NCBI RefSeq assembly: GCF_025997915.1 | Contig: NZ_AP026677.1 | Coordinates: 1,054,001 to 1,118,000, forward strand | DNA from: Aquiluna sp. KACHI24 | GTDB lineage: Bacteria; Actinomycetota; Actinomycetes; Actinomycetales; Microbacteriaceae | Direction: 5' to 3' | Length of the DNA: 64,000 nt | Shown here: positions 25,997 to 40,838 of the stretch, piece by piece | How positions within the stretch are numbered: position 1 is the first letter of the stretch | Layout: the number at the start of each line of letters is the position of its first letter | Notes under the pieces: generated by a model | Database searches by the model: none | Seen by the model: only the letters and a program-made list of their open reading frames with translations | What the model was told of the DNA's origin: nothing | Made by a program: the position numbers and the translations under genes

Positions 25997-26359
25997 ATGA
26001 GCTCTCTATTCATCTTTGACGGCGACTGCTCATTTTGTTCAACATCGGCGCGGTTTTTGGAAAAAATCACAAGGCATCGAGTCCCCATCAAGCCCTATCA
26101 ATTCTTGAACCTAGAGCAAGTTGGTGTCCCAAGACAGGATGCCGAAGCTGCGGTTCAATTCCTTATCGCTGGTGAGAGATATCAAGGGGCGCGTGCCATA
26201 GCAGAGGCACTCATTGCATCAAAGACAACCTGGGTGCTAGCCGGATGGTTTATCAAGACCCCGGTGATTTTGAGCTTTGCCGAGTTGGTTTACTTGCTGG
26301 TGGCTAAGAACAGGCATCGTCTTCCTGGCGGGACACCGGCCTGCAAACTTGAGCGTTAA
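25997..26359 (+). CDS. DCC-family (DUF393) thiol-disulfide oxidoreductase-like protein
   Basis: A 120-residue cytoplasmic protein of the DUF393/DCC family, named for its DGDCxxC start; here FDGDCSFCS places cysteines at 11 and 14 in a thioredoxin-like position. A hydrophobic stretch near residues 82-100 is usual for the family. It begins 33 bp after paralog 3 and overlaps the convergent DUF1801 gene by 4 bp. Substrate unknown. Confidence 0.85.
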   Translation: MSSLFIFDGDCSFCSTSARFLEKITRHRVPIKPYQFLNLEQVGVPRQDAEAAVQFLIAGERYQGARAIAEALIASKTTWVLAGWFIKTPVILSFAELVYLLVAKNRHRLPGGTPACKLER

Positions 26360-26769
26360 ACCGTGATTGCTTGCTTCACCAAGGAAACAATCTGGGCTTC
26401 CACCGCAGGGGAAAGTTCAGTTAGCGCGTAACTAGTGGGCCAGAAAGTTCCGTCATCCAGGTTGGCAGCTTCTTGGAAACCGAAGGTTGAGTAGCGAACC
26501 TTGAACTTGCTTGCTGACTGATAAAAGCAAATGACTTTGTCGTTGACGTAGTAGGCAGGCATGCCATACCAGGTGCGAGTGGTGATCTTGTCCGATACTC
26601 CCAGCACGAGCTCATGGATTCGCTGGGCCAACTTTTGATCATGTGCGTCCATCTCAGCTATTTTGCGCTGGACTTGCTCCTCGCCCGAGAGCTTCTTGAA
26701 TTCGCGTGCCTCTCTGGCACGCTCTCGCATTGCGGCCTTTTCTTCATCGGTAAATACCTGGTCAGCCAC
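26356..26769 (-). CDS. DUF1801 (YdhG-like) domain protein
   Basis: A 137-residue cytoplasmic protein. The segment TRTWYGMPAYYVNDKVICFYQ is typical of the DUF1801/YdhG fold, implicated as a frataxin-like iron chaperone in Bacillus; whether that role applies here is unknown. An N-terminal charged helix (about 1-45, many Glu/Arg) is probably coiled coil. The start is GTG 26769. It lies just downstream of the left tRNA-Thr copy and so marks the left chromosomal flank of the mobile island. Confidence 0.8.
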   Translation of the reverse strand: MADQVFTDEEKAAMRERAREAREFKKLSGEEQVQRKIAEMDAHDQKLAQRIHELVLGVSDKITTRTWYGMPAYYVNDKVICFYQSASKFKVRYSTFGFQEAANLDDGTFWPTSYALTELSPAVEAQIVSLVKQAITV

Positions 26770-26802
26770 TTTGCCTCTTCCTTAGGAGCCTAATTCCCCC
26801 AG

Positions 26803-26875
26803 AGCCACCTGAGAGAATCGAACTCTCGACCTGCTCTTTACGAGGGAGCTGCTCTACCGACTGAGCTAGGGTGGC
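26803..26875 (-). tRNA. tRNA-Thr (CGT), left copy, hybrid att site
   Basis: A complete cloverleaf on the minus strand with anticodon CGT in loop CTCGTAA and a T-stem of GAGAG/CTCTC; CCA is not encoded. The acceptor 5' strand GCCACCC faces AGGTGGC, leaving a C-A mismatch at pair 7-66. Bases 26828-26868 are identical to 39129-39169 in the second copy. The mismatch fits a hybrid gene whose 5' part came from the integrated element. It may be poorly functional. Confidence 0.88.
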
Positions 26876-27122
26876 GAAAAAACAAAGTCCCGCCACATTC
26901 CTGGCGTTCCGGGCTTGTGGCCCTGCGTTCATTTTAGTTGGTGCGTACACCCCATCCAAAAGGGATCGTCGGACTGATTCAGGATGTCTCGCTGCGTTCT
27001 AATAAAGTGCTGAGTTTCTGCTTAATCTCGGACCTAAGAATTCCAGAGGCTAGGTTAGCCAAACCCAAGGGAGTGCAGCGGATAAGAATCCTGCCCACTC
27101 AGTCGGCACAGGAGATGCTTAG
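26876..27122. other. Left terminal non-coding segment of the island
   Basis: About 250 bp between the left tRNA copy and the first island gene. Apart from the arm-site-like repeat at 27005-27025 I see no convincing gene, terminator or RNA here. Confidence 0.4.
27005..27025 (+). repeat. Putative integrase arm-site repeat, left end of island
   Basis: Begins AAGTGCTGAGTTT, then CTG-CTTAA. It matches 39013-39034 at the other end in the same orientation, with one substitution and one 1-base gap. In the excised circle the two copies would flank the tRNA-derived core, as arm-type sites do in attP of tyrosine integrases. Confidence 0.5.
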
Positions 27123-28220
27123 TCACTCTAGGTACTCGGAAGCACCGTCAGGTATTTTGAACCATTCCCTACTTCCGCCAGTGAGCCCCGAATTTATGCT
27201 CATAAATATTGCACCCGCGGTCACAATCTCGTTGTTCACGATCCATAACATTTGATCCTCATCCGAATAAGGCGTCCCAACTAAGTTAAGCTCCGCTGCA
27301 ACCTTGTCAAACACTCTCCATCGAACTTCCTCTGTATCCAGGAGCTCGACGCCTTCCCAGACTGCTTTCTCAAGGAACTCTGCCTGTAAGAATTCTTTAG
27401 GAATGGACTCTGGGTCATCCCAAGAAGCCCCCTCTATTCCCCAATCCATTGGTTCGAGCGCCGATTCAAGATAACGGGTTGACCCTATTTTGAAAAGCCG
27501 GTCGTAAGATTCAGCTGCTTGCCAAATTAGGCTGTGGTAGTTGACGGCTTTGGGTTCTTCCCACTCTCTGAATGAGCCGACCGACGACTTCAGTAGGGAT
27601 TTTCCAGCAAATGAGAGCCACTGAAGATAAAAATCCAATGTCTCAACGTGGTCACCACTAAAACTCACACCCGAAGCAGCCAGTGAGACGCCTACAAAAC
27701 TACTTCCTTCCTCGTCCTCCCAAGTTAAGAACTCAAACTTGCCATACTCCTGAGCGTCGAGGATTGGAGCGAAATCCTCCCGGGCCCTTGCAATGTCCTC
27801 ATTGGCTCTTTCTGGGTGAATAATCTCCCCTAGCCCCATTTTCATCCGCAAGTCAGCCATAGGTCCGAAAGTGCGGAACATTGGGTCTATCTCGGCGGAG
27901 ACGAGACTAATCATCAACGGCCTTGCCTTGTAAACAGTTGTCAGTTCGCTCTCGAAAAGCAAGCTACTTGACCCTTCAGACGAGTTTCCATCTGTGGGCT
28001 CGAGTTCGTAATCTTCAATGCCAGATGGAATTCCCTTGAATTCTGCAAAGCTGTCTAATATCGCCCTTAGCTCAAGCATCTTTCCCCCTACTTTCAGCTC
28101 GTTCAAAAAAGAATTTATCCGATTTATATAGGTTCGGTGGAGTGAATTGTGCCTGCATGCTCGTTTGATAATTTCCTCATAAGCCTTGAGAAGACCTTTC
28201 TTCAAAACAATGTCGGACAC
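27123..28220 (-). CDS. Island protein of unknown function, 365 aa
   Basis: I do not recognise a family. It is a soluble, acidic 365-residue protein without signal peptide or membrane helix, rich in Trp and Glu, with a helical basic N-terminus (about 1-50) and a more acidic remainder. The start is GTG 28220 with GGGGAGG about 9 nt upstream. It is the left-most cargo gene, transcribed toward the tRNA. By position it could be a defence or accessory gene; there is no motif evidence for either. Confidence 0.6.
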   Translation of the reverse strand: MSDIVLKKGLLKAYEEIIKRACRHNSLHRTYINRINSFLNELKVGGKMLELRAILDSFAEFKGIPSGIEDYELEPTDGNSSEGSSSLLFESELTTVYKARPLMISLVSAEIDPMFRTFGPMADLRMKMGLGEIIHPERANEDIARAREDFAPILDAQEYGKFEFLTWEDEEGSSFVGVSLAASGVSFSGDHVETLDFYLQWLSFAGKSLLKSSVGSFREWEEPKAVNYHSLIWQAAESYDRLFKIGSTRYLESALEPMDWGIEGASWDDPESIPKEFLQAEFLEKAVWEGVELLDTEEVRWRVFDKVAAELNLVGTPYSDEDQMLWIVNNEIVTAGAIFMSINSGLTGGSREWFKIPDGASEYLE

Positions 28221-28345
28221 CTCGATTAGCCTCCCCGGAAGAATGTGCGAACGGAGTCACTGACTGTTGCTGACAAGGCCTGCAGAATTCAACAGAGTGC
28301 CGTCCTACCCGAGTGAGCATTATTGATTGAATAGAAAGGCAAGAA

Positions 28346-28852
28346 GTGATTGTTCAGATTCCCAACGGGCTAGTGAGACTAAGCAGAGAACCACAATTCT
28401 TGCTAGAAACATCAACCCCGCTCATCACCCTGCAAGTATCTGACTATGCGTCACTTGATTTGTTGGGACTGGATGAGCACGGAGACATGAGGCTGGATCC
28501 CAGAGATGAGCTTTTCCCTTTCTCGGTTCAGGTTTACCCAGATCAGCTGTTGCATCACTTTAGGGACATCGATTGGAATTCTCCAGATTTGATCTCGGAC
28601 TCCGATTTCACGCCTAGGCCCAAAGCATTCCGTTGGATTCGATGGTTTGACCAACTTCCCAATCGTCTGTACGGCGAACACTTTGGGAAGTACATGGTGG
28701 GCCATTGTTTTCCCGACGAAGTCAACAAAACCCGCTGGCTGCACTGCCTGCTAGATGACAAGTTTTACGCCTATCCGCTTGCTTCTTTCCCCAACGACTT
28801 TGACGACATTTGGATATACGAAGACGAGGAATCCGAAGACGAGGATGCCTAG
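28346..28852 (+). CDS. Island protein of unknown function, 168 aa
   Basis: No family recognised. A soluble 168-residue protein, rich in aromatic residues (WIRWFDQLPNRLYGEHFGKY) and ending in a strongly acidic tail (YEDEESEDEDA). It starts at GTG 28346 behind AAAGG and is divergent from the 365-aa gene across 125 bp. It ends overlapping the DUF4268 gene tail-to-tail by 4 bp. The acidic tail could mimic nucleic acid or mediate protein contacts; that is speculation. Confidence 0.55.
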   Translation: MIVQIPNGLVRLSREPQFLLETSTPLITLQVSDYASLDLLGLDEHGDMRLDPRDELFPFSVQVYPDQLLHHFRDIDWNSPDLISDSDFTPRPKAFRWIRWFDQLPNRLYGEHFGKYMVGHCFPDEVNKTRWLHCLLDDKFYAYPLASFPNDFDDIWIYEDEESEDEDA

Positions 28853-29805
28853 CCTACGGTTTTTATGGCTGATTTAAAGACGGGTGAGGACACGACTTTC
28901 CGAAGCTCCGCATATTCTTTTGCAAACCAGTTTCTATAGGTCTGCCAAGCCCCACGATCTTCCACGTCGGCAACGGAGCCATAGATTGAGATTCGCGATG
29001 CAATCTTTCCCTCTAGAGGCTCGAAAACGAGCTTGGAGGTCGTCAACTGTTGAAGCTGAGATTGGACTTCATTCACAGCATCAAAACGCTTTGCGCTCTT
29101 CTCCGGATCTCTGCTTCCGAAGTACAACTCGACCCGTAGCCCTTTTCCTGAGAAGACCAAGTTCAGCGAAAGGTCCGCAAATCCGGTGAATGTCGGGAAA
29201 TATGAGCGAGCCCAGGCAGTCCGCTCCCGAAGATCCGGATACTCATCGCCAAGCTCGGCAATTAGGCTTTCCCAGAATTCCCCGTAGGCATTCAATCGGT
29301 CGGAGCGGCTGGCCTTTGACGCGGATTCACGCACTTGTTTGCCCCAAACGTTTGGCTCGACAACCAAGTCCAGCATCGGCGCTGGAAGAGAATCTCCGAT
29401 TTTTATTGCCCGAACTTCAACCCCAAAAAAGTGAGTCTCATTATCGGTAACCGAATTCAGCCAGTTGAGAGCTGCTCGATGCTCTTCCCGGATTTGCTTT
29501 GCAACCCACACGACAATCTGAGGTCGAACGCCCCCGGCGTAGGTGAGCAGTTGACCAAGATGTGAGTGGTTTGACTTCTCCAATTGATTCTCGATTATCA
29601 CCGATCGACCGGAAGCCAGATCAGTGCCAACAAGGTCGAGAGAAAAAGAACCGATTGGATGTTCTTTGGAAAGGTCCAGGTCCAGACCTAGAAGTTCACC
29701 AAGTTCCTGTGGGTTCTCTTCAAGCCAAGGGGTGAAGGACAGCGCTTCGTGTGGCCACACTGACCGAAGATCGACTTCCTGAATGCGTCCAATTTTCGTG
29801 TTCAT
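28849..29805 (-). CDS. DUF4268-containing PD-(D/E)xK-like nuclease, last gene of defence operon
   Basis: A 318-residue protein. The N-terminal half carries a restriction-nuclease-like core: GSFSLDLVGTDLASGRSVIIE with D57, then E72-N-Q74 as an E-x-Q variant of the (D/E)xK motif, and SHLGQLLTYA downstream. The C-terminal half matches DUF4268, a domain found beside restriction systems. The start overlaps the helicase stop by 4 bp (29802-29805). A likely role is DNA cleavage, or target recognition with the helicase; this is inferred, as activity cannot be read from sequence. Confidence 0.75.
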   Translation of the reverse strand: MNTKIGRIQEVDLRSVWPHEALSFTPWLEENPQELGELLGLDLDLSKEHPIGSFSLDLVGTDLASGRSVIIENQLEKSNHSHLGQLLTYAGGVRPQIVVWVAKQIREEHRAALNWLNSVTDNETHFFGVEVRAIKIGDSLPAPMLDLVVEPNVWGKQVRESASKASRSDRLNAYGEFWESLIAELGDEYPDLRERTAWARSYFPTFTGFADLSLNLVFSGKGLRVELYFGSRDPEKSAKRFDAVNEVQSQLQQLTTSKLVFEPLEGKIASRISIYGSVADVEDRGAWQTYRNWFAKEYAELRKVVSSPVFKSAIKTVG

Positions 29806-32540
29806 CCCAACATCACCTGCTTTAGTGTCTTGTCCCCAAGCCTCCAGCTTTTCCAGGATTCTGTCTCATCATCTAAACCGAGTGCTTTCGCTGCTTCAAC
29901 GGGACCGGCATACCGAATTCCATCAATAAGCAAACCAAAGTCGTCGGTCACAAAAGCTGAAGTTCCGGCTGGGACAAACACAAGTTCGTCCCCTTCATTC
30001 AAAAGGCCACGCTGAATAAGGGCAGCGAACTTCTCTTCCCTGGTAAGTCTCCACCCGCCAAGGGTCTCCGGAGCTTCCTCGTGGAAGTATGAAAGGCTTG
30101 GATTCTCGAACGACCTAAATTTCCAGACAGCATCATCCATCTTGGAGTCATTGAAAACCCTGCAGTCGACAAGTTGCTTGAAGTCTTTAATCGACAGCCC
30201 GGTGACTTTCACAAAGAGATCTGGCTCGACCTGCTCAATGATGTCTTTGATGGTTCTCTCTCTGTCATCGGTGAGATACATAAATGCCGGGATTCGCGTG
30301 ATGAATCTTCTAAGCTTTTGCTTTAGATTCTCCCTGCGCTTCGCCGACTCATCCTTGATTTTCTTTTCTCTCTCGTTCAGTGGCTCTTTAGTGAGCTTCT
30401 TAGGCCTGAGTTCCTTGTGGCTGGAAATCATGGCGGTGAGGTCGTTACCAATGTTTCTAAACATCTCAATTTGCTCAAGTGACTCAAGCAGCCCAGGATT
30501 CGCGAGGATGTTTTCCATCGACTTGATGTCCAAGTTGATTAGCTCGGGTGAGTTCCACCTTCGAGCAAGCATCGAGGAGGAGACTCCGCGAGTTAGATAG
30601 TCGATGACATCGCCGGCTTTGAGCTGGCTCATCGCGTAACCATCAAAGCTCAGGACAGGTAAGAACTCCATGAATTCGGCGATGGCTTGCTCGTCGTCCT
30701 TCTCAGAGGCCACCTCGGACTTCAAGCGGGTTGCGTAGTCAACGATTTGGCGCAAGGCCCGGTTAGGAGAAAAGTCCAAGACGAAGCAACGTTCTTTTTG
30801 GACGACCTCTTTCTCACCGCCCAATTCAGTGTCGATGTAAGAAGTGACCCAAGGTGATTGAACTCGGAAAGCGGCCTGGAAGTAAGATTCTGGACTCTTT
30901 AGCTCTCTGAGCATAAAAATGCCCGTCCAAGCCTTGACAGTCACCCCAGTCATGAGCTTTCCACATGAAAGTGTGATTGACTTTCGATCCTGAGGTGAGG
31001 AGCCGATCGCTTTTTCAACTGGTGGGAGTGCTTTGTCACCAATTCCTGCCTTCGAACCGGCAGCCACGACTATTTCATAGTCTCTAAAGAAAGTGTTGTG
31101 TTGAGCCCTTAGGAGGTCAGCCATCGCATAGCAAGAGTCCACGCTTGGCAGATACCACACGGTGTGCTGAAGCGCGGTCAAGAGATCAAGATTCTCAAAA
31201 GGCAGTGGAGGCCTCTTCTGATTGGCAACATTTGCCCAAAGGGAGTTGAGGTCCTGTCCTCGGAGCAAGTCGAGCCATTTCTGAACGTCTCGTTCGTGCT
31301 TGAACTTAGGCGCTCCGGACTCTGATTTCTCTGTCTTGAAGAACTCGGTGAGTGAGAATTCAGACTTGTTATTCAGAGCCACCTCTCGGAGTGCATCAGG
31401 CATTTCATAGGTCATCAAGACCATCTCCGGAAGCCCGAGATACGGATTGGGTTTATCTTCTGACCAGTTCTTTTTTGCAGACTGCTCATCCGAGTAGGTC
31501 CAGTTGAAAACTTGATTCTCAAGGAATTCGCCTTCGGTGAGGGCCCTGAATGGGGTGCCCGACAAGTAAAGGTAGTGGTTTACCTTGAATGGGATAGTCG
31601 CCTCAAGGTCCTCCTTGAAGTCCGAATCCAAATCAGGCGTATCCAACTCCTTGGCTTCACTTGAGTCGCCAGAGGTCCCAGCCTCTTTATCCTCTAAATA
31701 GATAGATCTCGCTGCATCCCTCCATGCACCGAAGTGATACTCATCGACAATGACTGCATCCCACTCAACCTCATAAAGACCCTCATTTTTCGCCTTAGGT
31801 TGCCCATTGGCATCCTTCCCAAGAACATCCTGAAAGGAGGCGAACCAGACCAGCGGACGATTCATAGATAAGTCAGGAATGGGGTCGCTCTTCCCCTTGA
31901 ACTCCCAGCCCTCGAAATCAATGTGGCCATAAAGGTCCTCCCGCCAATTTGTCTCAACAGCAGGCTTATAAGTGAGAACTAGGATTCTCTTCCAACCCAT
32001 TTCTCTTGCGAGCTGGTAAGAGGTGAAGGTCTTACCAAATCGCATTTTTGCGTTCCACAGGAAATGAGGGGCGGACTCAGTCTGTGAAGCCCTTCGAAAA
32101 TAGGCAGCCGTTTCCCGAACCGCGCGCTCCTGCTCTGGCCTGGGCTTGAAGTCAAGCCTGGTTCTGACGCTTTCGAGTTTTGCGCCTGCTTTTACAGATG
32201 CTATTGCGGTCCTAACTTCGTCAACTGTGCACTCGAACCATTCACCATCTCTTCTGTGAACTCCCGCTTGTTGAAGTGCTTTGTGGACACTGTGATCCCT
32301 AAACGCCTCGCCTGACTCTGTTATGGCGGATTCCACAAGCAAAAGTTCATAGGGGGACTCCGCTGGCATTTTCACTGCATTTAACTGCTCGCGTATTCGC
32401 ACTGAAACATCCCTGTCGGTGTCACCAACCTTGACTAATCCAGTCCCTTGTCTTTTGCCTTGCCAGGGGTCCTCGGCGTAAGCGGGAAGTGAGTACACAT
32501 ATATTTTTGGGTACCTAGTAGACTGCCCTATCTTCGTCAT
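29802..32540 (-). CDS. SF2 DEAD/DEAH-type helicase with N-terminal GIY-YIG/T5orf172-like domain
   Basis: A 912-residue restriction-type helicase. Residues 10-120 resemble a GIY-YIG/T5orf172 nuclease fold (KIYVYSLP ... GLVKVGDTDRDVSVRI ... H ... GEWFEC). The SF2 motor follows: motif I AKMRFGKT (164-171), motif II DEYH (266-269), motif III LSGTPF (326-331) and a motif VI-like FQAAFRVQS. The C-terminal about 300 residues are charged and unrecognised. It overlaps the genes on both sides by 4 bp. It would translocate on DNA for restriction, with cleavage by its own N-terminal domain or by the DUF4268 partner. Confidence 0.8.
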   Translation of the reverse strand: MTKIGQSTRYPKIYVYSLPAYAEDPWQGKRQGTGLVKVGDTDRDVSVRIREQLNAVKMPAESPYELLLVESAITESGEAFRDHSVHKALQQAGVHRRDGEWFECTVDEVRTAIASVKAGAKLESVRTRLDFKPRPEQERAVRETAAYFRRASQTESAPHFLWNAKMRFGKTFTSYQLAREMGWKRILVLTYKPAVETNWREDLYGHIDFEGWEFKGKSDPIPDLSMNRPLVWFASFQDVLGKDANGQPKAKNEGLYEVEWDAVIVDEYHFGAWRDAARSIYLEDKEAGTSGDSSEAKELDTPDLDSDFKEDLEATIPFKVNHYLYLSGTPFRALTEGEFLENQVFNWTYSDEQSAKKNWSEDKPNPYLGLPEMVLMTYEMPDALREVALNNKSEFSLTEFFKTEKSESGAPKFKHERDVQKWLDLLRGQDLNSLWANVANQKRPPLPFENLDLLTALQHTVWYLPSVDSCYAMADLLRAQHNTFFRDYEIVVAAGSKAGIGDKALPPVEKAIGSSPQDRKSITLSCGKLMTGVTVKAWTGIFMLRELKSPESYFQAAFRVQSPWVTSYIDTELGGEKEVVQKERCFVLDFSPNRALRQIVDYATRLKSEVASEKDDEQAIAEFMEFLPVLSFDGYAMSQLKAGDVIDYLTRGVSSSMLARRWNSPELINLDIKSMENILANPGLLESLEQIEMFRNIGNDLTAMISSHKELRPKKLTKEPLNEREKKIKDESAKRRENLKQKLRRFITRIPAFMYLTDDRERTIKDIIEQVEPDLFVKVTGLSIKDFKQLVDCRVFNDSKMDDAVWKFRSFENPSLSYFHEEAPETLGGWRLTREEKFAALIQRGLLNEGDELVFVPAGTSAFVTDDFGLLIDGIRYAGPVEAAKALGLDDETESWKSWRLGDKTLKQVMLG

Positions 32541-34048
32541 TCAAGGACCATTTCCTTGATGCGACTGTCGATCAATTGCCATTCGCTGTCAGTTAGGCCG
32601 AACATATTAACCAACTCTGCATCTGTCCAAATCCTGTCGAAGGTAACTCTCGGAACCCATTTGTAGGTTCCGCGCGGAGCATCTTGACCAGCCTTTCGAA
32701 GGGATACAAGGAACCTAAAGAATTTGGTCGCAACGTAGCTAGCGACCGACTTTGCCTCATCTTCGCTTTTCAGAGGCCCAATTAGCAAAAAGGTTTCGGT
32801 ACAAACCCAATTCGGACCAAGCATTTCTGGCTTGAAAATTACCGTATCGAAGGCACTTTTTTCCCGTTCACGGCCAGACCCAGCTCTGCGGATCGCGACC
32901 TTCCAGGAGGGAACAAAATCTAGCCCGGTCTGAATCTCTGTTTTGGTAACCCATGTTTTTCCCGTCCTTTCGAGAAGAGGGAGATCTCCCGGCTTGCTGA
33001 CTTTGTGCCCAGAGAAATTTGTTGCTAGCCCAAATGGTTTTCTCGCCGAAACTAGGTCCTCGATGGACTCAAAAGTTGCCACTTTGTCAACGATAGCCTC
33101 CGCACGATAATCTCGAAGAAGAACGTCGTATTTATCCAGTTTCCTCAAAGCCGTTCGCTCTTCCCCCAGGAAGTGGGAAGTTACTGTGCAGTCGCCGTCG
33201 TGATTCGCTTCCCATAGGAAGTAACAAATGCCACCATTTATGCCGACTTGGGGAAATACCTCGGCGGCATTTTGGTAGTCAACAATCTTGACGAGGCGCT
33301 TATCCGACAACATAGACTGGCGAAACGAGTCCAGCCCCTTCCCCCCCACCATCCAACGCGAGGGAATAATCATGCTGAGGTATTGGGGAGACAGTCTCAT
33401 AGCCTGATCTACAAAAAGATTGTAAATTGGGGATGATGATGGTGAGTCTGACTCATCGTCTGATTGATACGGGGGGTTTCCAACCACAATATCAAACTTC
33501 AAACCAATCTCCTTCTCGATAAATCTTCGTCCTTCTTGGTGGAGAAGGGCGTAAGCATAGTTTTCTGTTTCAGCCCCTCCACCCTGGTCTGCTTCCGCGG
33601 CCAGGCATTCTGAGCACCTACCTCGAAAAAACACGTGTTCGACCCTTTTGTAAATCAAATTCCCTTGGTCACTTGGGAACTTGACGACTGACTTGTCGCT
33701 GTTTGCCCACTTTGAGCAATACAGAGAGCGCCGGCTCACAAGGCTAGTTAATTCTGTTATCGCCACTCCAAAAACCATGTTCCGCAGAATGTGTTCTAAG
33801 CGCTGCTGCTCTTCTGGAATCTCGTCCTTGAGGCCGACAAGCAATCGCTTGGTAATCTCACGAAGAAAGACTCCGGTCTTTGTAAACGGGTCAATCCAGC
33901 GGAGCGAGGGATTCCTCCAAACATCCGCTGGTAGAAGATCGAGCATTTGCTTCGCAACCGAGGGTGGTGTGAAGACCTCATCGTTAGATAAATCCGCGAT
34001 GACCTCAAGGATGTCTGGCTCTTTAGTGTTGTTGTAGGAATTCAGCAT
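32537..34048 (-). CDS. Eco57I-type N6-adenine DNA methyltransferase, catalytic NPPY subunit
   Basis: A 503-residue methylase-like protein. The N-terminus has EVFTPPSVAKQMLDLLP and a degenerate SAM motif I (DPFTKTGVFL, 53-62); the catalytic motif IV NPPY is intact at 191-194. C111, C145 and C148 (CSEC) could bind a metal. The C-terminal half is probably target recognition. The start directly follows the 264-aa methylase gene (stop 34049), and the stop overlaps the helicase start. It probably acts as a heterodimer with the neighbouring methylase. Confidence 0.8.
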   Translation of the reverse strand: MLNSYNNTKEPDILEVIADLSNDEVFTPPSVAKQMLDLLPADVWRNPSLRWIDPFTKTGVFLREITKRLLVGLKDEIPEEQQRLEHILRNMVFGVAITELTSLVSRRSLYCSKWANSDKSVVKFPSDQGNLIYKRVEHVFFRGRCSECLAAEADQGGGAETENYAYALLHQEGRRFIEKEIGLKFDIVVGNPPYQSDDESDSPSSSPIYNLFVDQAMRLSPQYLSMIIPSRWMVGGKGLDSFRQSMLSDKRLVKIVDYQNAAEVFPQVGINGGICYFLWEANHDGDCTVTSHFLGEERTALRKLDKYDVLLRDYRAEAIVDKVATFESIEDLVSARKPFGLATNFSGHKVSKPGDLPLLERTGKTWVTKTEIQTGLDFVPSWKVAIRRAGSGREREKSAFDTVIFKPEMLGPNWVCTETFLLIGPLKSEDEAKSVASYVATKFFRFLVSLRKAGQDAPRGTYKWVPRVTFDRIWTDAELVNMFGLTDSEWQLIDSRIKEMVLE

Positions 34049-34843
34049 CTATCTTGTCCCCCGACGAATAATGCCCTTTGGTTTCCAAGTTACACGAGGG
34101 GCAGAGCCCAAGTCACTCACATAGCCATCCCAGTGCATTTGAGGTTCAGAGGCTCCGAAAATGTCGAGCATCCCGTCATCCTTGGGTCGATTGGCCTCTT
34201 GAATCTCGCCCCACTTGTGAAAGCGAATCTCAACTCGCCCTTGCTCGAAGTCCCATTTGTACTCCGGGATTGGCATCTCATCCCGATTAGTTGGTTTGCC
34301 ATTGGAATCAGACTCCAGCATGTTGCCTATAAGCACATTGTGCTCAAGAATCCACTCCGCGGCAGCGGTGAGACTCTCAAGGTAGACAGGGTCAAATAGG
34401 TCAAGACAGAGGTGCCTGAAGTGCTCCAGAAGTCGCTTGCGAGCGCCGTCACTCTCAACGTCCTCATGACCCAGGATGTTGTCCTCTGAGATATCGATTC
34501 CGTAAATAGAAGCAAGGGCTTCAAGGGCGTAAGTCGCTTTGACTATTTCAGAGGACTCTGACTTCAAAACGCCCTTCAGTGCTGCGAATTTCCGGTAGAG
34601 AACAACAACCAAAAAGCGGCCGTTTCCACAACTCGGTTCTAGGTAAGTCTTGCTGGGGCGGTAACTCCAAGCCTCCTCAGGAAGCAGGTCAAGCATGTCT
34701 TCAATTATGTTGAAGGGAGTAAATACCTCTCCGGCATCGCGCACTCGCTCCGTGGACTTAACCAGCCCCTCATCCCAGTAGCGGGAGGTTGTTTCTCTCA
34801 TCAACCTAAATTTAGCGGCAGCATCGGACATTCCTTGAGCCAA
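34049..34843 (-). CDS. Methyltransferase-like protein with intact SAM motif and no NPPY
   Basis: A 264-residue protein, first gene of the defence operon. The N-terminus contains EVFTPFNIIEDMLDLLP, closely matching the next protein, followed by an intact motif I LEPSCGNGRFL (68-78) and IYGIDIS. No (N/D)PPY catalytic motif is present; the corresponding region reads VLIGNMLES. It thus complements the 503-aa partner, which has NPPY but a weak motif I. The ORF opens at TTG 34843; ATG 34831 and ATG 34801 are alternatives, and the true start is unclear. Confidence 0.7.
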   Translation of the reverse strand: MAQGMSDAAAKFRLMRETTSRYWDEGLVKSTERVRDAGEVFTPFNIIEDMLDLLPEEAWSYRPSKTYLEPSCGNGRFLVVVLYRKFAALKGVLKSESSEIVKATYALEALASIYGIDISEDNILGHEDVESDGARKRLLEHFRHLCLDLFDPVYLESLTAAAEWILEHNVLIGNMLESDSNGKPTNRDEMPIPEYKWDFEQGRVEIRFHKWGEIQEANRPKDDGMLDIFGASEPQMHWDGYVSDLGSAPRVTWKPKGIIRRGTR

Positions 34844-34862
34844 CTGCCTAAATCGTTTTCGA
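34835..34862 (+). repeat. Imperfect direct repeat, copy 1, left of the 400-aa gene
   Basis: Contains ACTGCCTAAATCGTTTTC. It matches 36274-36301 (ACTGCCTGAATCGTTTTC, with TTGAGC just before in both) in the same orientation. The two copies bracket the 400-aa island gene, and this copy overlaps the methylase start region. Confidence 0.6.
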
Positions 34863-35027
34863 CCCTCGCCCTTACGCAGGGCCCGTTAGAACCCTCACGC
34901 GGCTGATCCGCAGTACCTAATGATTCGAGTGTTGGCTCAATTGTTGGTCGATGAAATCGTTCACGGCGCAAAATTTCTAATAAGTTAATTTCCTGAGGTG
35001 ATTTTCATCTCGAAATGGGGGGTAATT

Positions 35028-36230
35028 ATGTCTGATGACCTATCGCGCGATGTATCTCGAGGCGTGCAGGATGCAATATACAGAGTCCGTATAAATGACA
35101 TGGCGTTGCAGGGGATTGACAATCTTGTCGATGGCGTCGCACAGCATCTTGATCGGAAAGTCTGGCTGGCGAAGGAAGCCTGGTATTGGAGCATCTACAA
35201 CATGTCGGTGCTTTCCGATCCCCATCTAGAGGGTAAGTTCACGTGGGAGCCCTGGCGACAGAAAATCCAGAGCTTCAAAAAACCTATGTTCGACCAGGAG
35301 GGCAAGGCTCGAGAGGTCGCAGCCCTTATCAATCAGGAATTTAGGGAAGCCGGGTATCCAGTTGATGAAATGATGCAGACCTTGGAAACCAGGCGAAGCC
35401 ATTACAGCAGTTATCTAGATCGGGTAGCTAAAGAGGAAGAGTCGATTGCCAAGTTCGGTCACCTGGTAGGTGTCGACTTTAAGAACTTCGATGAAATGGT
35501 CGCCTACATGGGTCAACCGAACATCTTCACAAAGTGGATTGGTGGCCCGCAGGAAATTTCGGATTTCTGCAAGTCCATTGGTTTTTTAGCCGACCCGGAT
35601 CAGTTAGTCGGGGTGTTTGTTCGGGAAACGGATTGTGACGAATGCACTACAAGTAGCACCGTGACACATGCTTTGCTCGTCAGAGAGATTGATCATCTCG
35701 CTGAGACCCAAATGTCTTGGTGGAAGGCACAGTTCGAGCCTCAGGATGACTTACTGCTTTTGGGTAACGGCTGGGGTGGTTATCTTTACAGGGCCCCTGT
35801 TTGCATTCACATGCCCTTTGAGAATATGAGCCTCCAAATCGCCCAGGGTCTCAAAGCGCTTACCTTTGGCTATTACTACCCGTTTAAGACTCTCAAAGAC
35901 CACTTGTCGCAGGTCGAAAAAGACTTCGAAGGCAAGTTCAACTTCAAGAATTGGGTTGGAATGGGAATTGACGATGAAGAGGAGACGGCCCTGAAGAATG
36001 GGCAGCTGCAAGTATTTAGCTACCAAGGACCGGAATCTTTGGGCAAACCAGTGGGAATCAAATTTAGGATTCAAGAGGCAGGTATGTATGACTTTTGGTA
36101 CACGGATTGGAGTTACTACATTGAAGGGGGCTGCCTCGATATCGGAATCGCGGGGGATACAGACGCGACGCTGAGTTTTGGGCAACAGTTCCATGAAGCG
36201 GTCGATGAGAAAATTCGGTCACAAAACTGA
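35028..36230 (+). CDS. Island protein of unknown function, 400 aa, flanked by direct repeats
   Basis: I do not recognise a family. It is a soluble protein, acidic and rich in Trp/Tyr/Phe, with no signal peptide. A Cys pair (DCDECTTSS) and an aromatic C-terminal segment (YDFWYTDWSYYIEGG) are the visible landmarks. The start is taken as ATG 35028 (MSDDLSRDVSRG) behind a GGGGGG run; the frame is open to GTG 34998. It is divergent from the methylase operon and bracketed by a 27-28-nt direct repeat, so it may have entered as a cassette. A defence role is inference from location only. Confidence 0.6.
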   Translation: MSDDLSRDVSRGVQDAIYRVRINDMALQGIDNLVDGVAQHLDRKVWLAKEAWYWSIYNMSVLSDPHLEGKFTWEPWRQKIQSFKKPMFDQEGKAREVAALINQEFREAGYPVDEMMQTLETRRSHYSSYLDRVAKEEESIAKFGHLVGVDFKNFDEMVAYMGQPNIFTKWIGGPQEISDFCKSIGFLADPDQLVGVFVRETDCDECTTSSTVTHALLVREIDHLAETQMSWWKAQFEPQDDLLLLGNGWGGYLYRAPVCIHMPFENMSLQIAQGLKALTFGYYYPFKTLKDHLSQVEKDFEGKFNFKNWVGMGIDDEEETALKNGQLQVFSYQGPESLGKPVGIKFRIQEAGMYDFWYTDWSYYIEGGCLDIGIAGDTDATLSFGQQFHEAVDEKIRSQN

Positions 36231-36482
36231 TCCCTCCCAGCACAGTTGAGGCACATCAAGAACAAGTTCAATTTGAGCTACTGCCTGAATCGTTTTCAGA
36301 CTTTCTGTGTGCGCGACCACCTTTCCAACCTTTTTCTGCACCTTTTTAATGGTTGATAGCCTCGGAGGCCTTATAAATAGAGGGTTTCAGATTCGGCTTG
36401 GATTTCCAGGTTTTTGCCTATTGGTAACTTCAAATAGCCCAGTTTCCGCTTTTTTGCTAGTTGGATTTTTCACTCATAGTTA
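36231..36482. other. AT-rich gap between the 400-aa gene and rep
   Basis: About 250 bp downstream of both convergent genes. It holds the second direct repeat (36274-36301) and three closely spaced ACCTTT runs (36319, 36328 and 36340). It could contain a replication origin for the Rep protein, but I see no convincing nick-site hairpin. Confidence 0.3.
36274..36301 (+). repeat. Imperfect direct repeat, copy 2, right of the 400-aa gene
   Basis: Partner of 34835-34862. A shorter related run, GCTACTGCCTGGAAT, recurs at 37385-37399 on the far side of the rep gene. Confidence 0.6.
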
Positions 36483-37343
36483 CTAATAAGCATCTAACCA
36501 ATTTCGGCTGAAGATATATCGCCTGATCCCTGATGATGCGATTTCATATGCCTGCCAGATCTCGAGATGATATGCGTCCCCAGACATAACGGCGGATATC
36601 AGGTAATCGAGTGGGGTTTTCATCCCCTGCTTGCTGAACTGACCTTCCTCGTCAATCTCCACCCGAAAAGACTTGAAGAGGTACTGCATTATGGGAACCG
36701 TGTTGGAGTCCAGCGAGTCCGAATGGAGAAGCCGAATAGAGGGCAATAAACCAAGTGTTTTTGACTGCAGGTTTCTCCATTTTGAGTTGAATTCGCCTAT
36801 AAAAGCGACTACCTCAACCTCACTAACATGCCGAGGAAACATCCAAAGTGCGTGGAAATGCGGGGTCCAAACACCGTTGATAAGCGTCTCCTCGGTAACT
36901 CTCATGTAGGCCACGCCTAGAGCTGCTCTAGCTCTCTTAATCCTGCGCGAGTTCAACACCCGAACCCAAAGGCGATTCAGTACTTCATAACGCTGCCGGG
37001 CTTCCAAAGAGACATCGAAACCCGCTTCAAGGGTTTGCCACCAGGGAGTGCAAGAGCCAGCAATGTATTGGTCGAAAGCGTAGGCGAATCGTTTACGCAT
37101 TTTTGCCTCGTGCACACGAGCGCAGACGGGGCAGGCGTTTCGATGCCCGCATCTTCCCGTGAGTCCGGGGGTTTTGGCCAACCACTCCTCTGCCAATTTT
37201 GGCTTGGGTGTTTTTGGCCCGTAAGGGAAACAGTTACCAACGGAGTGGAATTGCGTGATCTCTCGCAGGTGCTCCAACAGCAATCTGACTGCATAGGCTG
37301 CGAGGAGTGACCGGTTTGATTTTCGGAATTCGTAAGTGATCAT
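36483..37343 (-). CDS. Rolling-circle (HUH) replication initiator, RepSA/pIJ101-like
   Basis: A 286-residue Rep of the kind used by actinomycete integrative plasmids to replicate after excision. Visible: a zinc-like CGHRNACPVC (C65, C71, C74), the metal-binding HUH motif PHFHAL with H162 and H164, and a candidate nicking tyrosine Y266 in WQAYEIASSGIRRY. It starts with ATG at 37343. It sits downstream of the integrase on the same strand, matching int-rep modules. It is somewhat short against Streptomyces Reps (often over 400 residues). Confidence 0.8.
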   Translation of the reverse strand: MITYEFRKSNRSLLAAYAVRLLLEHLREITQFHSVGNCFPYGPKTPKPKLAEEWLAKTPGLTGRCGHRNACPVCARVHEAKMRKRFAYAFDQYIAGSCTPWWQTLEAGFDVSLEARQRYEVLNRLWVRVLNSRRIKRARAALGVAYMRVTEETLINGVWTPHFHALWMFPRHVSEVEVVAFIGEFNSKWRNLQSKTLGLLPSIRLLHSDSLDSNTVPIMQYLFKSFRVEIDEEGQFSKQGMKTPLDYLISAVMSGDAYHLEIWQAYEIASSGIRRYIFSRNWLDAY

Positions 37344-37453
37344 TTTTATTTACCTAAGAAAAGAACTGATGTGTGGGGTTGTTGGCTACTGCCTGGAATA
37401 AGACGGCATGCCTGATGGAGCGGTCTGGTTGACTCCCCAGGAACGTTTGGCTT

Positions 37454-37492
37454 AACCCACCCCCCCCGACTTGGATTTCGTTTGGGTGGGTT
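37454..37492 (-). other. Inverted repeat downstream of int
   Basis: Arms AACCCACCC (37454-37462) and GGGTGGGTT (37484-37492) enclose a 21-base loop, immediately after the int stop and 110 bp before rep. There is no T-tract on the transcribed strand, so it is a weak terminator candidate; a replication-origin hairpin is another option. Confidence 0.35.
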
Positions 37493-37496
37493 CGAC

Positions 37497-38636
37497 TCAC
37501 TCAAAGAGGATTGTTGAAACCTTCTTTGCAAATCGGTCTGAGAGCGCTTGAACAACCGAGGCGTAGGTGCGCTTTGTTATCTCCACTCCTGAGTGGCCAA
37601 AGCCTTGGCTAATCTCTTCCAACAAGACTCCAGCTTCCAGGGCAAGATGAGCAACTGTGTGGCGAAGATCATGAATTCGTATCCTTCGAAGGCCAGCTTC
37701 TTTGAGCTTTCTGTTGAATGCCCGTGTTAGATAACTTGGTGACATAGGAGCTCCGTTTGCTCCGAGGATTATGTGTTCATTCGTAGCCAAACCTCTTAGT
37801 TGGAAACGATGATTTCTAAGTTGAAGTAGCGAGGCAGCGAGTTCGTCGCTCATCGGTAGCGTTCTAACAGATGCTTGGGTTTTTGGCGCTCCCTCTGTCA
37901 ACTTGATTTCAACATCACCATTGAGCCCAAGCTGACGCCTCTCCCCTCTTGATCTCTGAATCTTCAAAGTTTGATTGGCGAAATTCACATCGCTCCAGCG
38001 CAAAGCAAGAATTTCACCTTTCCTCATGCCCGTGCTCAGGGCAATCAGCAGAAATGCCTCTAGGTCTGAGTCCCTGAAGGCAGCGAGCGCCGCACTTGCC
38101 TCCTCGAGCGTCCAAGGTGATTGAACTTGCGAGGGCTTGCCACCACTCTCCGAGTACCTGGGGACCTTTGCCACAGGGTTTGAATCCAGAATACCCTGAC
38201 GCACAGCGAAGGCGAATAAGGCATGCAGTTTTGCGCGAACTGTGTTTATGGAACTGGTCCGGAGATTCGATTGCGCCAACGAAGACATCAAGTCTTCTAT
38301 TGCAGCCGAGTCAACTTTCTCAATGCTTCGGTTCCCCATTACCGGGACAACGTAAAGCCGCAATAGATGGACACTATTTGCCAGAGACGTCGAACGAACG
38401 CGCATTTTTTGGAATTCGACATACCTTGCAATTAGGCCTTGAACATCTATTGCTGCATTCCTCCTTGACTTCAGGTTGGGTGACCGCGCCAGATCAATCG
38501 CCCTCCTCTCTGCCTCAGACTTGGTCTTGGCACGACGTTGAATAGCCCTTCTCTTGCCGCTACTGTCTCGGAACGAGACCTGGAAGATCCAACGCTTGTG
38601 TTTTTCTGAGTACCAAACAGAAGTACCGTCTCTCAT
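37497..38636 (-). CDS. int: Tyrosine-type site-specific integrase
   Basis: A 379-residue phage-type integrase that recombines attP with the tRNA-Thr attB. The start is ATG 38636, where GGAGG lies 6 nt upstream and ATGA overlaps the stop of the HTH gene; the frame is open 15 bases further. An N-terminal arm-binding region and a SAM-like core-binding domain (about 65-150) precede the catalytic domain with R205, H322-x-x-R325, H348 and nucleophile Y358. All catalytic residues are present, so it appears intact. Confidence 0.93.
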   Translation of the reverse strand: MRDGTSVWYSEKHKRWIFQVSFRDSSGKRRAIQRRAKTKSEAERRAIDLARSPNLKSRRNAAIDVQGLIARYVEFQKMRVRSTSLANSVHLLRLYVVPVMGNRSIEKVDSAAIEDLMSSLAQSNLRTSSINTVRAKLHALFAFAVRQGILDSNPVAKVPRYSESGGKPSQVQSPWTLEEASAALAAFRDSDLEAFLLIALSTGMRKGEILALRWSDVNFANQTLKIQRSRGERRQLGLNGDVEIKLTEGAPKTQASVRTLPMSDELAASLLQLRNHRFQLRGLATNEHIILGANGAPMSPSYLTRAFNRKLKEAGLRRIRIHDLRHTVAHLALEAGVLLEEISQGFGHSGVEITKRTYASVVQALSDRFAKKVSTILFE

Positions 38637-39037
38637 CGGTAACCTCCACACAGGCTGTCCACATAGGCCTCGATGGATTTAATTGGGATTCTTGCAGAGC
38701 CACGGACGTGGACTACTTGAATTGCTCCTTGCTCAACGAGCCTGTATACGGTGCTTTTTGAGACATGCAGGTAGTCGCGTGCTGCCTCTGGAATAGAAAT
38801 AAGCATCTCTGCCCTTTCGATAAAAAGGTTTACTGGGATGGCAGATTTGGCATTAGGCAGAATTGCCCGAGTGAATTCTCGGGATAAAAGAAAATCGGTT
38901 TCGACTTCTCTCTCGATCAAGTCGACTGAACTTGCGAGGTGAAGATATCTTCGCCCGAGTGAACCGGTAAGAGACCCGAAACGCCGAAGCATTTTTAAAG
39001 TTTTTTTGGATGAAGTGCTGAGTTTTTGACTTAACAC
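38633..39037 (-). CDS. xis: Excisionase-like helix-turn-helix protein
   Basis: The C-terminal about 55 residues form a MerR/HTH_17-type DNA-binding domain (SIPEAARDYLHVSKSTVYRL ... SIEAYVDSL), as in excisionases and recombination directionality factors. The full open frame is 134 residues from GTG 39037, but its first codons overlap the arm-site-like repeat 39013-39034 and lack a ribosome site. ATG 38806, with AAAGGG upstream, would give a 57-residue protein of classical Xis size. Coupled to int by an ATGA overlap. The start is unresolved; the HTH domain is clear. Confidence 0.65.
   Translation of the reverse strand: MLSQKLSTSSKKTLKMLRRFGSLTGSLGRRYLHLASSVDLIEREVETDFLLSREFTRAILPNAKSAIPVNLFIERAEMLISIPEAARDYLHVSKSTVYRLVEQGAIQVVHVRGSARIPIKSIEAYVDSLCGGYR
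39013..39034 (+). repeat. Putative integrase arm-site repeat, right end of island
   Basis: Begins AAGTGCTGAGTTT, then TTGACTTAA. Same orientation as the left copy at 27005-27025. It lies about 70 bp from the 3' end of the right tRNA. Confidence 0.5.
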
Positions 39038-39103
39038 GATTTGAACCCCTCCTTCAAATGGAGGGCCCGGGCCCGGAGGCCAGTAAATTCGTGGGACTCA
39101 GAG

Positions 39104-39176
39104 AGCCACCTAGGAGAATTGAACTCCTGACCTGCTCTTTACGAGGGAGCTGCTCTACCGACTGAGCTAAGGTGGC
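39104..39176 (-). tRNA. tRNA-Thr (CGT), right copy, functional att site
   Basis: A complete cloverleaf with anticodon CGT, a perfect 7-bp acceptor (GCCACCT with AGGTGGC) and T-stem AGGAG/CTCCT; CCA is not encoded. Its 5' flank is chromosome and its 3' end faces the integrase module, so the 3' half would be element-supplied. It shares 41 identical bases with the left copy and AGGTGGCTCT at the 3' end. This copy should be the working tRNA. Confidence 0.92.
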
Positions 39177-39198
39177 GCGCGAAAAGACTACCAAAAGC

Positions 39199-39230
39199 AA
39201 AAGGGGCACCATTGCCGTGGTGCCCCTTTT
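39199..39230. terminator. Intrinsic terminator (both strands possible)
   Basis: A perfect 13-bp stem, 39199-39211 with 39218-39230, loop TTGCCG, A-rich left and T-rich right flanks. It probably ends the GNAT transcript on the minus strand, about 140 bp after that gene and just ahead of the tRNA. Confidence 0.8.
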
Positions 39231-39369
39231 ATAGGAGGCCCTGAACCTGTCAGGGTTTTCACCCGCAGCAAAAACACTCGGAATTTACTGCGGGGAAGCT
39301 CGAAATCACTGAGTTAAATCTCGTGCCGTAGCGGTTTATTCCAAGCTGAAACTAACTGGCGAATTGGAT
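39231..39369. other. Structured non-coding gap after the GNAT gene
   Basis: Two further inverted repeats are visible: CCCTGA/TCAGGG (39239-39255, followed by TTTT on the plus strand) and CCCGCAG/CTGCGGG (39262-39294, 19-base loop). No ORF. It may be a long 3' UTR; a small RNA is possible but unsupported. Confidence 0.3.
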
Positions 39370-39891
39370 TTAGTTACAAGACAACTTCATCTGCAGAAAC
39401 ACCTGACCATCTTCTGTAATTTCTCCTGTTTTTAGGAATCCGCATTTGGTGTAGCTGCGAATGGCTCTTTCGTTGTGCTTGAGAACCTCAAGTGTCAGGG
39501 AGCTCAGGGAAAGAGATTCAAACGCGAACTTGATCACCATTTCAAGCGCCTGGGTACCAAGTCCTCGTGAGGTTTTTCCCGTTATGAGGGCAATCCTCAT
39601 GTTCATCGATTGCTGGTCAGCATCGAACTCGTTGAGCACGATTTCGCCCACGAATTCCTGAGTCGCGTTCTCTATGATTGCCCAGTCCAGGCGTTCGGTT
39701 GCTCCGGGTCTAGTTTGAAGCCAGTGAGTTAGCTGCTCGATCGTGAATGATCCACTACTGGCTGTCCATGCACTAGTTTCCTCATCGCCAATTAGCGCGA
39801 CATACTCCTCAAGTCTGGAAATCTCCAGCTGCACGAGAGTGACCTTGCTACCAGACAACGTGGGGGCCACAGTGGGAAAATCAACCGGCAT
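39370..39891 (-). CDS. GNAT-family N-acetyltransferase (RimJ/RimL-like)
   Basis: Transfers acetyl from acetyl-CoA to an unknown amine. 173 residues. The acetyl-CoA loop is in ALITGKTSRGLGTQALEM (Q/RxxGxG/A type), and EVLKHNERAIRSYTKCGF is the typical C-terminal GNAT motif. It is the first intact chromosomal gene right of the island. The substrate cannot be predicted. Confidence 0.85.
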   Translation of the reverse strand: MPVDFPTVAPTLSGSKVTLVQLEISRLEEYVALIGDEETSAWTASSGSFTIEQLTHWLQTRPGATERLDWAIIENATQEFVGEIVLNEFDADQQSMNMRIALITGKTSRGLGTQALEMVIKFAFESLSLSSLTLEVLKHNERAIRSYTKCGFLKTGEITEDGQVFLQMKLSCN

Positions 39892-39923: not shown

Positions 39924-40838
39924 CTAATGCAACCCAGGCTGCCAGACCCCGGCCCGGATCAACCTCGCTCTGGCGGCATCTTCGATTGGTGACTCTGGGC
40001 CAATCGCAAACCTCATGAATCTAAGAAGCGAGGTTGTGACTGGGCGAGTAAACCAAAGCGGCAAGCCCTTGAGGCCAATCATCGCTCGATACTCCACGGG
40101 AAGTGTCGCGAGAGCTGATTGAAAAAGCAGGGCATAGACCGGCTTAGCCAGTGGCGGCAGTGGAGCCCTCTTAATCCAACTGATTACAGAACGAGTCTTT
40201 TGATTGACCACGAGCTCAGATTTGAAAGCGTCCAGAGTTTGAAATAACTCCGTTTCGGATTTAGGTGCCTGTTTTAGACCGAGTGGTTCTACGGAGCGGG
40301 CCCAGAGCCTCACATAGGCATCTGCTCCCCCGGGGATTTCACGCTTTGAGTAATTTTGGTGGGCTCTTAGAAAGCTCTCCATAAAGGCGATGTGAACCCA
40401 TAGCAAAAGGTGCGGGTCCGCTGCTCGATAGCTGGAGCGTTCGCCGTCTGCGGTTTCATACTCACCGCTGACTCTGTCATGCATTCGGTTCACGCGGCCA
40501 GCTTCGTTCTGGATGGCGGTGTGAGAACCAAAGGTCGTAACGGTGAGCCAGCGGATAGTGCCTGACAGCCTGCCGAGTGGATCCTGCTCATACCGCGAGT
40601 GCTGAGCAACACCGGCAAGTGAACCTGGGTGCAAGGCCTGCATCAGTAGCGCCCTGATGCCGCCAACTAATGTTGCGAAATCTGCGTGCACGATCCAAGG
40701 AGCATCTTCGGGTAGAAATAGACCCGGCTCATCGCCTTCGGCAACAATAGGCAACCAGGGTGGGATGCCCTGTGGGTCACCAGAGAGAAGTTTGCGAAAC
40801 CTTTTTGAAAGGTTTTCTTGTAACCGATTGTTGGGCAA
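39924..40838 (-). CDS. Oxygenase MpaB/DUF2236 family protein
   Basis: A 304-residue cytoplasmic protein of the DUF2236 family (latex-clearing/MpaB-like, heme-type in characterised members). Visible family features: WIVHADFATLVGGIRALLMQALHPGSLAGV near the N-terminus, HTAIQNEAGRVNRMHDRV, and the His-containing PHLLLWVHIAFMESFLRAH. Start at 40838. Divergent from the small membrane protein with 39 bp between starts. Substrate unknown. Confidence 0.82.
   Translation of the reverse strand: MPNNRLQENLSKRFRKLLSGDPQGIPPWLPIVAEGDEPGLFLPEDAPWIVHADFATLVGGIRALLMQALHPGSLAGVAQHSRYEQDPLGRLSGTIRWLTVTTFGSHTAIQNEAGRVNRMHDRVSGEYETADGERSSYRAADPHLLLWVHIAFMESFLRAHQNYSKREIPGGADAYVRLWARSVEPLGLKQAPKSETELFQTLDAFKSELVVNQKTRSVISWIKRAPLPPLAKPVYALLFQSALATLPVEYRAMIGLKGLPLWFTRPVTTSLLRFMRFAIGPESPIEDAARARLIRAGVWQPGLH

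Follow-up and report, generated by a model that had tools for sequence, protein, structure and literature searches.

The window analysed here is a 64,000-nucleotide stretch of the genome of Aquiluna sp. KACHI24 (contig NZ_AP026677.1, positions 1,054,001 to 1,118,000), and the subject of this analysis is a 12.2 kb interval within it that lies between two tRNA-Thr(CGT) genes and carries genes for a tyrosine integrase, an excisionase and restriction-modification-like proteins (Table 1). ARAGORN detected two tRNA genes in the window, each a minus-strand tRNA-Thr(CGT), and both passed Rfam RF00005, with 56.6 and 64.7 bits; we refer to them as the left copy, far from the integrase, and the right copy, near it. 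The source genome consists of one contig of 1.46 Mb with 42 tRNA matches. When the genome was searched for the right tRNA including its edges, three places matched: both copies and, as a 76% match, genome positions 9687-9748, which hold tRNA-Ala(TGC).

The two copies are identical over 41 nucleotides (26828-26868 and 39129-39169), corresponding to tRNA positions 8-48, and again over positions 66-74. A first-pass annotation had reported the 41-base identity with the right coordinates and sequences, as well as a C-A mismatch in the acceptor stem of the left copy, which is present as C7/A66. The copies diverge at position 7 (left C7, right T7) and from position 49 on, including position 57, and two T-stem pairs differ between them (left GAGAG/CTCTC, right AGGAG/CTCCT). 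Position 7 of the right copy forms a T7/A66 pair, and the acceptor and T-stems of this copy are fully paired as they stand. In both copies the anticodon-stem pair 31-39 (our own numbering) is a non-standard C/A mismatch, which occurs in the reverse A/C form in four relatives. No promoter-like site turned up ahead of either copy in a promoter scan, which thus does not tell which of them is expressed; of the two, the right one is probably the functional gene.

Flanks of the element and related loci

The locus was compared with 20 stretches from the genus, 3-18 kb each, 18 of which contain a full-length tRNA-Thr(CGT), two of these coming from the same genome (G008). One relative (G002, L054) has the empty arrangement, with the DUF1801 gene, one tRNA-Thr(CGT) and the DUF2236 gene in this order and nothing in between. 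The first-pass annotation had predicted that a genome lacking the island would link the DUF1801 and GNAT genes of the window through a single tRNA of the hybrid sequence; G002 has a single tRNA beside DUF1801, but the other neighbour is not GNAT. It is a homolog of the next gene outward, which we provisionally label DUF2236. Of the 18 related loci with a full-length tRNA, 16 have this gene next to the tRNA on its 5' side, whereas the GNAT gene was found in none of the 20 stretches (E<=1e-4) and is not a conserved neighbour.

Regions of 110 nt upstream of the tRNA copies were compared by local alignment with the same place in 17 relatives, with 300 shuffles for each. The region upstream of the right copy was similar in seven of the 17 relatives (0/300 shuffles each), and that upstream of the left copy in none. 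On its 3' side, the left copy reaches DUF1801 within 32 bp, compared with 31 bp in G002. Because the upstream region of the right copy is host-like in these seven relatives and the 3' side of the left copy runs into DUF1801, the outer flanks are assigned to the host, and the element therefore starts and ends within or beside the tRNA. Close to both of its ends lies the 13-mer AAACTCAGCACTT, in direct orientation; none of 500 shuffles of both 250-nt flanks reproduced it, and it marks candidate integrase arm sites. When the whole window was searched for the 13-mer with up to three mismatches, three matches were found, and only the two end sites were exact.

Position of the crossover

Next, loci of integrases related to that of the element were examined for displaced tRNA copies. 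The 49 loci comprised six plus 43 distant ones, the latter being those with a tRNA within 1.5 kb among the best 80 of 555 alignment-search matches in genome_contigs. Displaced copies were found at three of the six and at two of the 43 loci, the low yield of the distant set being due in part to loci ending 10 kb from the integrase. The integrase of G007, which is 39% identical and uses the same tRNA, has a displaced copy comprising positions 32-74, while those of tRNA-Arg in G028 and G118 comprise 32-76 and 31-74, that of tRNA-Lys in Geodermatophilus 29-75, and that of tRNA-Thr(CGT) in Plantibacter 28-76. At least two displaced 3' halves (L113, L114) thus stand among the 43 loci taken from the best 80 of 555 matches; two further loci (L175, L179) gave only 19-20 nt matches, to the 5' part of the tRNA. 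Since the starts at 28, 29, 31, 32 and 32 intersect the identical block at 8-48, the shared zone is 32-48, and the crossover probably fell there, within the anticodon loop, the 3' strand of the anticodon stem or the variable region.

In G118 (L103), two displaced tRNA-Arg(ACG) copies stand in a row (8199-8224 and 10466-10509), the one nearer the integrase being decayed. Both begin at position 31 behind the same GAATAGA, and the arrangement looks like a tandem of related elements.

The bases on the two sides of this zone are linked within the genus. In the 17 other copies, positions 7 and 66 are always paired (11 C-G and six T-A); the AGGAG T-stem occurs with C7 in 10 of 10 cases, and all six T7 genes carry other T-stems. 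The combination of T7 with AGGAG is found in the right copy alone (0/17 genus copies). Exchange of the halves yields C7 with AGGAG for the element and T7 with GAGAG for the host, and the T7 and AGGAG oddity disappears. Measured as the distance to the nearest tRNA of the genus, the exchanged attB and attP sequences differ by four and two changes, compared with three and five for the observed copies, which lends mild support to an exchange.

Stem pairing, by contrast, does not decide the question. The first-pass annotation had pointed to the perfect stems obtained when the 5' half of the right copy is joined to the 3' half of the left copy. The acceptor and T-stems of this join do pair, but the right copy is already paired without any exchange, and the reciprocal join keeps the C7/A66 mismatch; an exchange thus only shifts the mismatch from the left copy to attP, and pairing was rejected as proof of it.

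Collectively, the outer flanks, the arm-like repeats, the integrase relatives and the linkage between tRNA types support the first-pass view of an island inside tRNA-Thr(CGT) with swapped halves, on grounds that differ from those first given, and indicate that the right copy very probably comprises a host 5' half and an element 3' half, and the left copy an element 5' half and the displaced host 3' half. A presumably mobile 12.2 kb integrative element would have entered the tRNA gene through a crossover within positions 32-48, and its attP would have held an essentially complete tRNA-Thr(CGT) flanked by the arm-like sites, beyond the usual 3' half. Upon integration, the right copy would retain the host upstream region and 5' half and gain the T-arm and 3' acceptor strand of the element. 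In the left copy, the element 5' half with C7 would be joined to the displaced host 3' half with its GAGAG T-stem, giving the C7/A66 mismatch. An attP with a near-complete tRNA would therefore leave two full-length hybrids. The first-pass annotation had called the crossover unusually far 5', which does not hold, because anticodon-centred sites form the larger class in the Islander survey (2083 of 3919; PMC4383910).

Alternative explanations

Several observations weigh against a crossover within 32-48 and an exchange of halves. The loose window-wide search for the 13-mer is unremarkable, since 21 of 100 shuffles also reach three matches. Similarity upstream of the right copy is missing in 10 of the 17 relatives, and blastn (E<=0.05) with either flank as query matched nothing but the window itself. 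The single tRNA of G002 is of the C7/G66/AGGAG type and not the predicted hybrid, and G002 is a different, more distant species; the relatives in general are only 70.6-76.3% identical over DUF2236 and orf40878, too distant to show the exact empty site, and a tree of these two genes places the window genome with a support of only 0.27-0.31. Displaced copies were found at only five of the 49 integrase loci, the integrases being only about 30-39% identical, and at three of the six closer loci (G175, G211, G016) none was found. The displaced copy of G007 sits on a different contig from the integrase, and the near and far copies of Plantibacter differ at position 36, inside the anticodon loop, which misfits an unchanged identical overlap at 32-38. 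The 10/10 linkage does not represent 10 independent events, because the genomes counted are related.

Since positions 66-74 too are the same in both copies, the sequence by itself allows a crossover within 66-76, at the 3' end of the gene, which would make the right copy an untouched host gene and the left tRNA element-borne except for its last bases. Such an event would fit a right copy that is paired as found, and T-stem/junction sites are likewise a common class in the Islander survey (1836 of 3919; PMC4383910). We nevertheless consider it improbable: the displaced copies of the five integrase relatives, for all their low identity, begin at 28-32, and the host gene would have to combine T7/A66 with AGGAG and A57, of which T7 with AGGAG and A57 are each found in none of the 17 genus copies.

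That both copies are full-length, recognisable tRNAs would also be expected if the host had long possessed two tRNA-Thr(CGT) genes and the element merely lay between them. This is highly unlikely, given that none of the 20 related stretches, within their 3-18 kb, has two full-length copies, that in none of the 17 relatives is the host gene preceded by sequence similar to that upstream of the left copy, and that the extra 3' fragment expected from an insertion at the right copy was not found in the genome at E<=0.001, although a short one could escape. The identity over 8-48 could, finally, reflect gene conversion, the left copy being an ordinary displaced 3' fragment that regained its 5' half from the right copy. 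Conversion requires similarity on both sides, whereas the sequences upstream of position 1 appear, on inspection by eye, to be unrelated, and at position 7 the left copy carries C but its donor T; we give this explanation hardly any credence.

Gene content of the element

The interval between the copies has a GC (guanine plus cytosine) content of 49.6%, compared with 53.4 and 53.5% outside. Inward from the right copy it encodes the excisionase, the tyrosine integrase, a Rep_1-like protein, a 410-aa open reading frame (ORF), a short methyltransferase-like protein, an Eco57I-type methyltransferase, a T5orf172-helicase-RAMA protein, a DUF4268 protein and two ORFs without a family. The integrase and excisionase genes adjoin the right copy on its 3' side, in agreement with the first-pass placement of the integrase, which contains R210, H327-x-x-R330, H353 and a candidate Y363. 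The Rep_1-like protein, presumably of the rolling-circle type judging from its family, is 24-27% identical to the Rep proteins of four Rhodococcus and Pseudonocardia plasmids. The ten element ORFs were scanned against NCBIfam and nine of them also against Pfam, and no transfer protein of the FtsK/SpoIIIE type (Tra) was recognised in these scans.

Table 1. Positions of the tRNA copies, element genes and neighbouring features in the window
Feature	Position	Strand	Remarks
Host gene "DUF1801", 3' side of left copy	26356..26769	-	First-pass name; without Pfam match at E<=0.001; relatives carry homologues close to this tRNA
Left (far) tRNA-Thr(CGT), full length	26802..26875	-	Read as element 5' half plus displaced host 3' half; C7/A66 mismatch
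Terminator-like hairpin just upstream of left copy	26891..26906	-	Weak; 1 found vs 0.8 expected in shuffles
Candidate integrase arm site, left	27005..27017	-	13 nt identical to 39013..39025, direct orientation
ORF, 365 aa	27123..28220	-	No family match
ORF, 168 aa	28346..28852	+	No family match
DUF4268 protein	28849..29805	-	PADLOC candidate PDC-S11
T5orf172-helicase-RAMA protein, restriction-modification-like	29802..32540	-	RAMA and ResIII matches under Pfam cut-offs
Eco57I-type DNA methyltransferase	32537..34048	-	Family match
Second, short methyltransferase-like protein	34049..34843	-	Weak matches, best 3e-5; no Pfam hit; gene order as on pDrdVI
ORF, 410 aa	34998..36230	+	No family match
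Rep_1-like replication protein	36483..37343	-	Pfam E 3.9e-6, 27 bits, under Pfam cut-off 33.2
Tyrosine integrase, 384 aa	37497..38651	-	Pfam Phage_integrase 1.9e-23
Excisionase-family protein	38633..39037	-	Family match; overlaps integrase start
Candidate integrase arm site, right	39013..39025	-	Partner of 27005..27017
Right (near) tRNA-Thr(CGT)	39103..39176	-	Read as host upstream region and 5' half plus element 3' half; acceptor and T-stems paired
Host terminator-like hairpin upstream of right copy	39198..39231	-	1 found vs 0.7 expected
"GNAT" gene	39370..39891	-	First-pass name; not found at the locus in relatives
Conserved host neighbour, tRNA 5' side ("DUF2236")	39924..40838	-	Gene conserved in relatives; provisional label

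The restriction-modification-like cargo spans 28849-34843 of the window and includes the extra short methyltransferase-like gene and the DUF4268 gene, the PADLOC candidate PDC-S11. The order short methyltransferase, Eco57I methyltransferase, helicase is shared with plasmid pDrdVI of Deinococcus wulumuqiensis, whose helicase is 45.7% identical. By contrast, an order of methyltransferase, methyltransferase and helicase was not seen around the homologous helicase of pCRULAC2 in the PLSDB gene table, which is incomplete.

A megablast search of the element DNA against plasmids gave no match. Single-protein searches with the integrase (viral_contigs and genome_contigs) and with the Rep protein (viral_contigs) gave no relative; phage integrase relatives are all less than 60% identical, at best 28-29% among the matches listed. 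A 43-nt piece of the predicted attP and a 39-nt core pattern were not found in viral_contigs.

Discussion

Islands in tRNA genes are textbook knowledge, and att cores that cover whole tRNA genes have been described earlier (SLP1, HP1), so an attP holding a whole tRNA is probably not without precedent. What distinguishes the present element is its far copy. Ten displaced tRNA-Thr(CGT) copies in other members of the genus match from positions 24, 26, 27, 28 (four copies), 32, 40 and 52, and none of the ten includes the 5' half. Unlike these usual 3' fragments, the far copy here is complete, and therefore the element would have to have brought the 5' half too; the left 5' half agrees in 31 of 31 bases with the gene of C7 type in six relatives. 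Displaced tRNA-Thr(CGT) fragments in L057, L058, L059, L060, L067 and L097 are preceded by one of two recurring motifs, either an AAACA...TGTTTTCAGGGG-like inverted repeat or CCCGAGGCTAAAGGGATCAT, which resemble left ends of other element families.

The arrangement resembles the anticodon-centred class A of Islander (PMC4383910) in having a tyrosine integrase beside a reconstituted tRNA, an element-supplied 3' part and a displaced host 3' part at the far end, but the far copy is a full-length tRNA here and a 3' fragment there. According to the same text, Islander requires an island to have a fragment at the end opposite a full tRNA, and it rejects hits inside full-length tRNAs (PMC4383910), so that a layout with two full tRNAs would be filtered out and elements carrying whole tRNAs may be under-counted. 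We found no description of an island with two full-length tRNA hybrids in the literature searched, including the accessible parts of PMC4383910, PMC9897764, PMC3218068, PMC8371274 and PMC5495485. The archaeal integrase IntpTN3 is likewise reported to recombine two full-length tRNA genes in vitro, the crossover being read from mismatches (PMC5495485), although the outcome is an inversion between host tRNA genes and not the integration of an element.

Actinomycete integrative and conjugative elements (AICEs) of the pSAM2, SLP1 and pSE211 types are likewise inserted in tRNA genes and carry an integrase, an excisionase and a Rep of plasmid type, the Rep match here falling under the Pfam cut-off. 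Six closely related integrases of the pSE211 type use tRNA-Thr (PMC3218068). Because the FtsK/SpoIIIE-type transfer protein of AICEs was not recognised among the scanned ORFs, the present element is not classed as one.

Two elements in tRNA-Thr(TGT) of the genus provide a further comparison. Their integrases are 31% (G014) and 29% (G010) identical to that of the present element, the G010 Rep is 28% identical, and they too carry the 5' part of a tRNA. The G014 element (L248, L245; C1:142268-148533) is flanked by a 151-bp exact repeat that comprises 95 bp of upstream sequence and tRNA-Thr(TGT) positions 1-56; of the two tRNA copies, the one beside the integrase breaks off near position 56 and the far one is whole. 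The layout in G010 (L249, L247; C1:726714-735314) is similar, but the near copy has a different upstream flank. In both, the match of the near copy ends at 56-61, and the tRNA appears to be restored from the 5' side with an upstream region repeated at the far copy, unlike in the present element. Both the upstream region and the 5' part of the tRNA thus seem to be supplied by the element itself.

The genus also varies in the part of tRNA-Thr(CGT) that an integrating element would supply. Excluding the copies of the window genome itself, partial copies and the second G008 copy, the mean pairwise difference over positions 49-65 was 0.189 for tRNA-Thr(CGT) (n=17), compared with 0.022 for Thr(GGT) (n=18) and 0.021 for Thr(TGT) (n=17), whereas over positions 1-48 it was 0.036, 0.000 and 0.056, respectively. 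The tRNA-Thr(CGT) T-arm is thus about nine times more diverse than those of the other two, of which Thr(TGT) is not a clean control because in G010 and G014 elements have integrated into it as well. In G021 (L057, C37), an intact tRNA-Thr(CGT) is accompanied by two displaced 3' halves with GCCAG and AGGAG T-stems (7724-7771, 9602-9648, 13683-13756), which may reflect one integration after another at the same site; no relative of the present integrase was found in this genome, which is 64% complete. Two contigs of G008, L073 (at the end of C6) and L101 (C16:2363-2436), share 55 bases, consisting of seven upstream bases and tRNA positions 1-48, beyond which they diverge into AGCGG and GCCAG T-arms with different surroundings, probably an assembly branch from mixed strains.

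Relaxed constraint on tRNA-Thr(CGT) is the simplest alternative explanation of the T-arm diversity. Taken together, the diversity and the loci of G021 and G008 suggest that integrating elements repeatedly replace the tRNA-Thr(CGT) T-arm. As a tentative extension, which we regard as possible but rather doubtful, the elements of this genus may act as carriers of tRNA modules that replace the T-arm and 3' acceptor strand through an anticodon-loop crossover, some of them carrying a whole tRNA and leaving two hybrids. The site described here opens two questions to testing: do integrating elements rewrite a housekeeping tRNA in its T-arm, and is a hybrid whose acceptor stem is mismatched silent or expressed? 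If the extension is true, the 3' half of a core tRNA gene would evolve as mobile-element cargo.

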